Source of the DNA: Halostagnicola sp. A-GB9-2
GTDB taxonomy: Archaea > Halobacteriota > Halobacteria > Halobacteriales > Natrialbaceae
Direction: 5' to 3'
DNA: 64,000 nucleotides
Assembly (NCBI RefSeq): GCF_030068615.1
Contig: NZ_JASJOC010000001.1
Coordinates: forward strand, 372,001-436,000
In this document: positions 23,595-27,907 of the stretch, piece by piece
Position numbering within the stretch: position 1 is the first letter of the stretch
Layout of the letters: each line of letters starts with the position of its first letter
Position numbers and translations under genes: made by a program
Notes under the pieces: model-generated
Databases searched by the model: none
What the model was told of the DNA's origin: nothing
The model's input: only the letters and a program-made list of their open reading frames with translations

Positions 23595-24491
23595 TTATTC
23601 GAAGTCGTCGTTATTCGAGGCACTGTTCGTGTAATAGTTAAAGAGGTCGGTGTACGTCGGATCGACGACCTCGAGTGCCTGGTTCGACTCGAGAGCGGCG
23701 TTCGTCTCGGACTCCGGTTGCTGGTCGTCGGCTGGGAGAAAACCGCGAATCGTCCCGTTCCCCTGGAACACCTCGCCGCCGACAACGACGGAAGCGAGTT
23801 GTTCCGAGTTCGAGAGCGTCGTTTCGACGACCTGCGGAACGGAATCGAACAGCGTATCGGGCGTTCCCGTCGTCACCACTCGCCCGTCCGCAACGAACGC
23901 GATTCGGTCCGCGATATCGGCGTCCATTGGTCGGTGACTCGAGACGATGATCGTCTTTCCGTCGGCCTGTTTCTCTCGAATCAGGCCGTGAACGACCTGG
24001 ATCATCGAGAGGTCGAGCGCGGCCGTCGGCTCGTCGAGGAGGTAGATCGGCACGTCGATGCTCAAGGCGATTGCCAACTCGAGTTTCCGGACCATGCCGC
24101 CAGAATAGTCTTCGACCGGCTTCTCGAGATCGGCGTCGATCTCGAGCAGTTCGACGTACTCGCGCCAATCGTCGGTGAAGTTCGGGTGGAGTTGCTCGTA
24201 GAACCGCAGGTTCTCCCGTCCGGTGAGTCGATCGACGCAGAGGGCATCCTGCAACAGGAAACTCGTCGTGTCGGATCGCGCGGTCGGATCCTCGCCGAGT
24301 ACCTCGATACTCCCTGCGGACGGGTGCTGGCTTCCCGCGAGACAGGAAAACAGCACGGACTTGCCGACGCCGTTGGGCCCCAGTACCGCGAGCAGTTCGC
24401 CCGATTCGACGGCGAGATCGACGCCCTCGAGAACGCGCTCGTCACCGAAGGATTTCTCGACACCCTCCGCGAGAACGGACGGCTGGCTCAC
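23595..24491 (-). CDS. ABC-type transporter ATP-binding protein
   Basis: A 298-residue ATPase. Walker A is LGPNGVGKS, the signature region DYSGGMVRKLELAIAL, Walker B IYLLDEPTAALD and the H-loop VSSHRP. The start is taken as the GTG at 24491, where GTGA overlaps the permease stop; in-frame GTGs at 24497 and 24500 are possible. The C-terminal 80 residues (from VVTTGTPDTLFDS) form an extension typical of ABC-2 exporter ATPases. Cargo is unknown; export of a drug, lipid or peptide is possible. Confidence 0.92.
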   Translation of the reverse strand: MSQPSVLAEGVEKSFGDERVLEGVDLAVESGELLAVLGPNGVGKSVLFSCLAGSQHPSAGSIEVLGEDPTARSDTTSFLLQDALCVDRLTGRENLRFYEQLHPNFTDDWREYVELLEIDADLEKPVEDYSGGMVRKLELAIALSIDVPIYLLDEPTAALDLSMIQVVHGLIREKQADGKTIIVSSHRPMDADIADRIAFVADGRVVTTGTPDTLFDSVPQVVETTLSNSEQLASVVVGGEVFQGNGTIRGFLPADDQQPESETNAALESNQALEVVDPTYTDLFNYYTNSASNNDDFE

Positions 24492-25348
24492 GGCCACCAC
24501 CCTCGTTTGTAGAGGACCTTATTGAGGAGAACCGTCCCGACGACGAGCGCAACCGCGGCGTACGCGAAAAGTGCGAGCAGATATTCGGGTCCCGCGGGCA
24601 GTGCCGGCGGAGCCACGCCGATCTCAACCCACTCCTCTCCGGGGACGAGATGGTAGACCATGAGCCGCGTCGGAAGCGTGTTCGGGAGGTAGTTCATCAG
24701 TTCGCCGTCGATCGGGGACATCTCCGCGTTGACACCGTTGAGTCCGGTCAGAACGTACCCGGCGACGGCGATCATGGGAACTGCGTACTCGGCGACGCGT
24801 TCGTTCTTCGCGGCGGCGATAAACGGAAGGGCCACGATCATCCAGAACACGCAGGTGAGCGCGAACGCGCCGAGAACGATCGGTATCGATTCGGGCCCGC
24901 GGAGTCCGAACGAGGCACCCGTGAGGACTCCCGCGGCGAGCGTCAGTCCGAACGCGACTGCGGCGAGACAGAAGCCGGCGAACATTCGCCCGCCGAGATC
25001 CGCGGACGGGGAGATCGGCATGGATCGATAGGCCTCGTACCGACGGTCCTCGAGGTCCGTCGCCAGTTGATAGCCGAACACGTACAGACAGATGTATACC
25101 GCGCCGAAGACGCCCGTGCCGACCGCCCAACTCGCCAGCATCGTTTCCGGAACGTCACCGCCCTGCATGCTAAAGAGCAACTGCATTCCGGGAGCGAGTG
25201 CCACGACCGTTCCGAGCAGTATCCAGCTGTTCAAGACTTCTCGAAGGCTTCGCTCGGAGAACGCTCTCGCTTGCGAGAGCCATCGCCTCGAGCGCGATCC
25301 ATCCGCGAATCCAGGTTCATGTTCGTCGGCTGTCGTCTGTGTTGCCAT
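24488..25348 (-). CDS. ABC-2 type transporter permease
   Basis: A 286-residue membrane protein with about six helices and a cytosolic N-terminus. Examples are WILLGTVVALAPGMQLLFSM, LASWAVGTGVFGAVYICLYVFGYQLA and LLALFAYAAVALVVGTVLL. The segment DLEDRRYEAYRSMPISPSADLGGRM is the cytosolic loop typical of ABC-2 permeases. First gene of the four-gene operon; its promoter region carries two palindromes ending 40-75 bp upstream. Confidence 0.88.
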   Translation of the reverse strand: MATQTTADEHEPGFADGSRSRRWLSQARAFSERSLREVLNSWILLGTVVALAPGMQLLFSMQGGDVPETMLASWAVGTGVFGAVYICLYVFGYQLATDLEDRRYEAYRSMPISPSADLGGRMFAGFCLAAVAFGLTLAAGVLTGASFGLRGPESIPIVLGAFALTCVFWMIVALPFIAAAKNERVAEYAVPMIAVAGYVLTGLNGVNAEMSPIDGELMNYLPNTLPTRLMVYHLVPGEEWVEIGVAPPALPAGPEYLLALFAYAAVALVVGTVLLNKVLYKRGWWP

Positions 25349-26524: not shown

Positions 26525-27079
26525 CTAATTGGTGTCTCGACGCATGGCGATTTCGAACCACGGGCAGAGACGAAGTTGTCGATACCACTCCGGGTTGGAG
26601 TGAAGCCGTTCGTACGGGACCCACATCAGGCCCGCAACTTCGTCGACATCCGGCTCGAGCGTCTTATCCGCTAGCGTCAGTTTCAGGACCGCACAGACCT
26701 CGTGTTCGACGCCCTGATTCTCGAAGTATCGTTTGTACTCGAATCGGTCGGTAATCCGGAGATCGTCGTACTGTTCGGGGCTGATACCGAGTTCCTCCTC
26801 GAGTCGTTCTCTCGTCGCCTCTTCCTGGCTCTGGCCCTCGACGGGGTGGGAAGCGACGGTTCCGTCCCAGTGGGTCCCCCACAGCCGTTTCTCGGGTGCA
26901 CGTTGGGCGAGCAGAACGTTATCGTCCCGGTCGAAGACGAGCGAAGTGAACGCTCGGTGGCGGATTCCCTCGCCTGTGTGCGCCTCGAGGCGGTTGACCA
27001 GACCCTGTTCCGTGTCGTCTGAATCGACGGCGATTACGTCCTGTCCGGCATTTTCGTGTAGATCGTCGGCCGCGTTCAT
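26525..27079 (-). CDS. idi: Isopentenyl-diphosphate isomerase type I-like Nudix protein
   Basis: A 184-residue protein from ATG 27079 with the type I IDI build: metal ligands His34, His41 and His78, the Nudix box with EEATRERLEEELGI, and Glu125/Glu127 in VEHEVCAV. The classical enzyme interconverts IPP and DMAPP for the archaeal isoprenoid lipids. The catalytic cysteine of E. coli Idi (in NSVCGHP) aligns with Ala76 here (DGTVASHP), so activity is uncertain although all other active-site residues remain. Haloarchaea usually also carry the type II flavin isomerase; it is not in this window. Confidence 0.8.
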   Translation of the reverse strand: MNAADDLHENAGQDVIAVDSDDTEQGLVNRLEAHTGEGIRHRAFTSLVFDRDDNVLLAQRAPEKRLWGTHWDGTVASHPVEGQSQEEATRERLEEELGISPEQYDDLRITDRFEYKRYFENQGVEHEVCAVLKLTLADKTLEPDVDEVAGLMWVPYERLHSNPEWYRQLRLCPWFEIAMRRDTN

Positions 27080-27241
27080 ACCAGCACAATCAAACCGGCT
27101 CGTAAAACCAGTACCGACTCCGGAACGAAATCCGGTCGGCGAACGAGAGATCGGCATCGAGGCAGGGTCGAGTCCCGTTTAGAACGTCCGAAGCGTAGCG
27201 AAATGTCAAGGTCAATGTCACTGGCGAACCAAGACGCTGCC

Positions 27242-27907
27242 ATGTTCGCCGTCGATCTCCACGCACACACTCGGTTCTTCCACGGCCACCGACGCCTCGG
27301 CGATCGGTTCGATCCGTACGGATTCGCACTCCTCGCTCGAGCTGTCGACCGCCGTGGTCTCGACGGGGTCGCGACGACGAATCACGATTACTCGAGGGCG
27401 TTTTCGGATTCGACGATCACGGCGATTCCGGGGATCGAAGTTTCGACGACACACGGCCATGTATTGATAATCGGCCCAAATCCGCCGATCGAGACGGTCC
27501 CGCTCGAGTACACGCCGTGGGAGGTCGCCGAGATGGCCCACGATCGCGACTGCGTGGCCATCGTCTGCCATCCCTGCCGAAACAGCACGGTCGCGGACCT
27601 CGAGGGAGTCCCGTTCGATGCCGTCGAGATCAACGGGAAGCATCCGCGGACGCGTCCGGTCGCGGCGGAGCTGGCGACGGCTCACGGCGTCCCGTTGGTA
27701 GCGGGAAGCGATGCGCACCTCCCGTTCGAGGCTGGTCGGGCGTACACGATGATCGACGCGGACCGACTCACTCCCGAATCGGTCGTCGAGGCGATCCGGG
27801 AGGACCGCGTCGAACCGAGGGTCGCAACCACTCGAGTTGATCAAGTAATTCGACGCGGTTACCGCACACTCCACCGGCGAAAACACGGAGAAACGCGTTC
27901 AGAGTGA
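27242..27907 (+). CDS. PHP-domain metal-dependent phosphoesterase
   Basis: A 221-residue protein from ATG 27242 (MFAVDLHAHTRFF). The PHP motifs are all visible: DLHAHTRF (HxH), VATTNHDY, IPGIEVSTTHGHVL, AIVCHPCRN and VAGSDAHLP with the final metal-binding Asp-His. It resembles the PHP proteins related to histidinol phosphatase and to the 3',5'-nucleotide phosphatase TrpH. The substrate is not predictable. It is divergent from idi. Confidence 0.88.
   Translation: MFAVDLHAHTRFFHGHRRLGDRFDPYGFALLARAVDRRGLDGVATTNHDYSRAFSDSTITAIPGIEVSTTHGHVLIIGPNPPIETVPLEYTPWEVAEMAHDRDCVAIVCHPCRNSTVADLEGVPFDAVEINGKHPRTRPVAAELATAHGVPLVAGSDAHLPFEAGRAYTMIDADRLTPESVVEAIREDRVEPRVATTRVDQVIRRGYRTLHRRKHGETRSE

Follow-up and report, generated by a model that had tools for sequence, protein, structure and literature searches.

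A gene for a type-I-like IPP isomerase of 184 aa was found at 26525..27079 on the minus strand of the analysed 64,000-nucleotide stretch of Halostagnicola sp. A-GB9-2 DNA (the window, to which all coordinates refer), as judged from the ORF, profile matches and alignment. Its ATG is located at 27079, and a further in-frame start giving a longer ORF is present at 27157. The protein matched the isomerase families NF002995 (119.5 bits, curated cut-off 127) and TIGR02150 (98.9 bits, curated cut-off 105.8) over the family length, in both cases below the cut-off. Pfam NUDIX was matched as well, and an NCBIfam scan with E up to 0.01 gave no match to TIGR02151, the type II isomerase family. A PDB sequence search returned 14 distinct sequences, 13 of which were IDI entries, with 3hyq and E. 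coli Idi as the best ones; the last match was a designed protein (0.00059).

The neighbouring genes were named by eye from their sequences, and the names are therefore presumptive. A PHP-phosphoesterase-like (PHP-domain-like) gene on the plus strand (27203-27907) is adjacent and divergent to the isomerase gene, an arrangement conserved in 75 of the 77 loci longer than 6 kb (out of 80 loci and the window region), as judged from rough clusters that include opposite-frame ORFs. CarA-like and Lrp/AsnC-like neighbours were located further out. No link to isoprenoid metabolism emerged from the conserved neighbours of these 77 loci. Downstream of the isomerase gene, ABC transporter ATPase-like and permease-like ORFs (23595-24500 and 24488-25348, minus strand) overlap each other by a few bases.

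Alignment with E. coli Idi revealed all the ligands of the type I metal site (His25, His32, His69, Glu114 and Glu116) as His34 (26978..26980, minus strand, as are all codons given here), His41 (26957..26959), His78 (26846..26848), Glu125 (26705..26707) and Glu127 (26699..26701), the last being also the presumed proton donor. The diphosphate cluster Lys21/Arg51/Lys55/Arg83 together with Glu87 was represented by Arg30 (a Lys to Arg exchange), Arg60, Lys64, Arg92 (26804..26806) and Glu96, whereas Tyr104 and Trp161 corresponded to Tyr115 (26735..26737) and the lid residue Trp174 (26558..26560). The metal and diphosphate roles are those which we take the E. coli residues to have. The catalytic Cys67, in contrast, aligned without gaps with Ala76 (26852..26854). 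The E. coli stretch WTNSVCGHP is matched by WDGTVASHP (residues 71-79, 26843..26869), in which Asp72 and Gly73 take the place of Thr/Ala/Ser63 and the invariant Asn64 of Cys-type enzymes. Hence, the retention of the five metal ligands and the replacement of the catalytic Cys by Ala76, both put forward in the original prediction, were borne out. A different Cys is present in the C-terminal lid: Cys172 (26564..26566; Ser159 in E. coli), which is specific for haloarchaea and a candidate replacement thiol.

The same substitution at the same position is known from the engineered C67A variant of E. coli Idi, which is reportedly essentially inactive. Ala is found at E. coli Idi position 67 in the PDB sequences 1ow2/1q54 and 1hx3, and a C67A structure made by others is cited in PMC3509576, the variant having served to probe the role of the Cys. 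That mutation was introduced into an enzyme with Ser159, whereas haloarchaea natively combine Ala with Cys172 and other linked changes.

To place the protein among its relatives, 21 haloarchaeal sequences (the window and 20 of 122 loci), 18 Cys-type IDI-1 and seven of nine weak Nudix relatives were used for an alignment and a tree. Six Cys-type rows were retrieved with the window protein as the query (8 records matched) and ten with a Cys-type protein of actinobacterial origin (118 matched); the remaining two were E. coli K-12 and one viral contig. In the Cys67 column, all 18 Cys-type rows had Cys and all 21 haloarchaeal rows had Ala. The Cys-type panel is small and consists of records from plasmid collections, E. 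coli and a single viral contig, so that a bacterial Ala form could escape such sampling. The metal ligands, Arg51, Arg83, Glu87, Tyr104, Trp62 and Trp161 were present in all 18 Cys-type rows and Lys55 in 17. Thirteen IDI positions (H34, H41, R60, K64, W71, H78, P79, R92, E96, Y115, E125, E127 and W174) were common to both groups; at each of them no fewer than 17 of the 18 Cys-type rows agreed, and identity over 123 haloarchaeal rows was at least 99%. Differences were seen at residue 172 (Cys in 21/21 haloarchaeal rows, Ser/Thr in 18/18 Cys-type rows), at residues 72 and 73, located on the same strand as the lost Cys, and at Gln83, where 17 of 18 Cys-type rows have Glu. In the tree, IDI-1 and the haloarchaeal proteins were split from the Nudix hydrolases with a support of 97/97. 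The haloarchaea clustered together (100/100), with a stem branch of 2.83 changes per column, and their nearest Cys-type neighbour was Neorhizobium (83/88), which was flagged as an untrustworthy long-branch join. Acquisition of haloarchaeal IDI1 from bacteria is reported in PMC3533463; such a small tree neither proves nor contradicts this origin. The viral-classed contig in the panel, L231 (IMGVR_UViG_3300021431_003109), encodes its Cys-type IDI-1 near its end.

The AF2 model of the window protein reached a pLDDT of 83.7 and a pTM of 0.80, with modest confidence around the motif (78 in block 71-80) and in the lid (72-74 in the blocks from 161 on). The top 15 Foldseek matches of the model were all IDI entries. 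VIA Z was 18.0-19.1 for human and E. coli IDI, with 2fkb, a putative hydrolase, close behind at 17.5. As far as the model goes, a Nudix-like IDI fold is predicted over the full length. This likeness on its own would not tell IDI from Nudix hydrolases because the value for 2fkb is so close to those for IDI. In summary, the haloarchaeal form has in common with type I IPP isomerases (E. coli Idi, human IDI1/IDI2) the fold, the metal ligands, the diphosphate cluster and the equivalents of Glu116, Tyr104 and Trp161, and differs from them by Cys67→Ala, Asn64→Gly, Thr63→Asp, Glu74→Gln, Lys21→Arg and Ser159→Cys as well as by scores below both curated cut-offs.

The state of the motif across the haloarchaeal class was then followed in 122 loci, taken from genomes with high or mixed scores and from others picked for their low scores; the window was added as a row of its own beside L001, the same gene, giving 123 rows. 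WDGTVASHP was identical in 122/122 loci, so that Ala76 is neither a sequencing artefact nor a mutation peculiar to this genome. Ala occupied the Cys site in all 123 rows, and so did R30, H34, H41, R60, K64, H78, R92, E96, Y115, E125, E127 and C129 their respective positions. CPWF at Cys172 was found in 122 of the 122 loci. In total, 67 positions were at least 99% identical across the 123 rows, all the other active-site residues among them. The genomes of 82 loci lacked a type II isomerase, 35 had one and five were outside the 391-genome search described below; WDGTVASHP and Cys172 were unchanged whether or not the genome encoded type II. TIGR02150 matches, none over the cut-off, were obtained for 122 of the 125 genomes in the family with which sampling began. 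The gene with Ala (the Ala form) was identified by a TIGR02150 match in 386 of 391 class genomes and in 375 of the 377 high-quality ones, and none of the matches in the 391 genomes reached the cut-off. Weak second matches (20-31 bits) in some genomes were taken as other Nudix proteins and left uncounted. A scan with the patterns WDGTVASH and G[ITV]RHRAFT over one genome per GTDB species yielded 421 confirmed relatives, the best 80 of which were titled as haloarchaea with the exception of one 'Euryarchaeota archaeon'. Among IMG/VR contigs, no Ala-form relative was confirmed (two patterns, seven stretches).

The need for such an enzyme follows from the origin of IPP, which haloarchaea make via a modified mevalonate pathway (PMC8305020), the steps being listed for Haloferax volcanii in PMC13358004; an IPP isomerase is therefore needed. 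IspH, which forms DMAPP directly, was not detected in any of the 194 class genomes searched for it, and DMAPP is thus not supplied by a MEP pathway; among 14 control genomes, nine were positive. The FMN-dependent type II isomerase (TIGR02151), presumably catalysing the same reaction as the Ala form, is unrelated to it in fold and cofactor (PMC3509576). It was detected over the cut-off in 115 of the 391 genomes: 275 genomes had the Ala form alone, 111 had both, four had type II alone (G142, G286, G337 and G409) and one, 88% complete, had neither (G408). The two forms thus showed a complementary distribution, a pattern which rests on about two independent losses because three of the four type-II-only genomes belong to one family (f11). 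When 23 near-complete genomes lacking type II were searched again with E relaxed to 10, no full-length copy was found.

Two of the matches obtained in this relaxed search were C-terminal type II stretches of about 75 bits (G157:C2:5963-6226 and G131:C1:1792146-1792382, covering positions 243-337 and 258-337 of the profile, respectively), which may be what is left of a former gene; otherwise, it gave weak superfamily matches. Six genomes (G005, G027, G047, G247, G260 and G335) carried two to three type II matches beside the Ala form, one of the two in G047 being a 113-bit fragment. Such multiple copies may reflect transfer on mobile elements.

In most haloarchaea, the Ala form is the only recognised isomerase candidate. 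The control genome of Haloferax volcanii likewise gave an IDI-1 match and no type II match at 1e-30, and IdiA/HVO_2506 is named as its IPP isomerase in a 2026 paper, as an assignment and not as a shown assay (PMC13358004). The genome of the window carried both forms: the type II gene, which the original prediction had proposed to look for, was found at C33:185026-186027 (396.8 bits), and isomerisation there may thus not depend on the Ala form alone.

The gene most probably encodes a working type I (Nudix-fold, metal-dependent, flavin-free) IPP:DMAPP isomerase with something other than the canonical Cys as its second acid/base, a reading to which we assign a probability of about 0.8. We infer this from the 275 genomes with the Ala form and no recognised type II enzyme, from the absence of IspH from the class genomes searched, and from the IDI residues, the predicted fold and the position in the tree. 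Of the two options offered by the original prediction, an isomerase able to work without the Cys or a Nudix hydrolase, the first was thus favoured by the distribution, and the choice rests on inference. The missed curated cut-offs, the reported inactivity of E. coli C67A, the presence of type II in the window genome and the lack of isoprenoid genes among the neighbours speak against it, and the very long stem would also fit a change of function.

It is improbable that haloarchaea without type II use a third, unrecognised type of isomerase and that the Ala form performs some other conserved job, e.g., on isopentenyl monophosphate. The search covered known families only, and such a role would agree with the long stem branch and with conserved gene neighbours that are not isoprenoid genes. 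However, the Ala form keeps the diphosphate- and metal-binding set along with the Glu/Tyr acid, and four of the five genomes lacking it carry type II, as expected for one function with two solutions, three of these genomes being from family f11.

The second option of the original prediction, a hydrolase, found no support. An enzyme derived from IDI-1 and hydrolysing IPP/DMAPP, or another prenyl or nucleotide diphosphate, could make DMAP for prenylated FMN in the manner of MM_2582 of Methanosarcina mazei, which we take to be an IPP/DMAPP hydrolase. The Nudix fold without the isomerase Cys would suit this role, and Glu95/Glu96 of the Nudix box are kept (of the 123 rows, 110 have Glu at position 95 and 13 have Asp). 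The Nudix hydrolase family NF041653 was matched weakly, with 37.5 bits against a curated cut-off of 300. The Methanosarcina Nudix hydrolase of this family, a distant Nudix relative, lacks the isomerase Cys like the haloarchaeal form; unlike the latter, it has a canonical Nudix box, and the Methanosarcina homologues with the full REMLEE box are devoid of equivalents of His78, Glu125 and Glu127 (His69, Glu114 and Glu116 of IDI). The box GX5EX7REUXEEXGU, as given in PMC5389931, is broken in the window protein by Ser77 at position 1, Gln83 at position 7 and Glu91/Arg92 at positions 15/16. Position 16 was Arg in all 123 haloarchaeal rows and in all Cys-type IDI, and Glu, the residue of hydrolases, in six of seven Nudix rows. 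The tree separated the haloarchaeal proteins from the hydrolases. UbiX, the consumer of DMAP, was encoded by just 16 of the 194 class genomes searched for it and was absent from that of the window. A hydrolase would also leave the 275 genomes without any recognised isomerase. On the basis of the box residues and the UbiX distribution, a hydrolase feeding prenylated FMN was rejected, and a hydrolase in general is considered quite unlikely.

The loss of a catalytic residue and the type II copy in the window genome might suggest that the gene is a degenerate IDI remnant or has a regulatory role only. This is hardly credible given the 67 nearly invariant positions, including all the remaining active-site residues, and the retention of the gene in 375 of 377 high-quality genomes.

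For a working isomerase, the accepted type I mechanism, in which a Glu protonates the substrate and the conserved Cys removes the C2 proton (PMC3509576), requires modification: Cys67 is gone and the C2 proton must therefore go elsewhere. By analogy with E. coli Idi, the metals would be held by H34, H41, H78, E125 and E127 with E96, and the R30/R60/K64/R92 cluster would position IPP. Metal-bound E127 with Y115 would then protonate C4 to give a tertiary cation beneath W174. The C2 proton, which is taken up by Cys67 in E. coli, could be removed by C172 or, staying on one face of the substrate, by the E127/Y115 pair. Judging from sequence, C172 is tentatively the leading candidate for the replacement base because it is a thiol, is invariant, is absent from the Cys-type panel and is sequence-adjacent to an active-site residue, being two residues before the lid Trp174. 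In this route, the thiol would have moved from a core strand to the C-terminal lid. A mechanism without a catalytic thiol, with metal-bound Glu127/Tyr115 as a single acid and base on one face, as proposed for the flavin N5 of type II, is possible but rather doubtful, and another residue or water acting as the base is about as likely. Cys129 (EVC) was rejected as a specific rescue, as the corresponding residue of E. coli is also a Cys (NEVCPVF).

The open-licence literature searched, which makes for weak evidence of novelty, yielded neither a description of Cys being exchanged for Ala in haloarchaea nor any assay of haloarchaeal IDI-1. The generalisation that archaea have IDI2 instead of IDI1, as worded in PMC4244643, fails for most haloarchaea. 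Residue-based annotation rules would wrongly call the Ala-form protein inactive, and with no TIGR02150 match in the 391 class genomes reaching the cut-off, the isomerase that is the sole recognised one in most haloarchaea can be overlooked by rule-based annotation. The whole class appears to depend on a natural C67A form for DMAPP and thereby for membrane lipids, carotenoids and quinones, and this isomerase probably works by a rearranged active site. If the single-base E127/Y115 mechanism were true, two stereochemical solutions would be realised in a single fold; if C172 is the base, a catalytic thiol would have migrated to the lid. This point of the textbook mechanism is testable in the tractable Haloferax volcanii.
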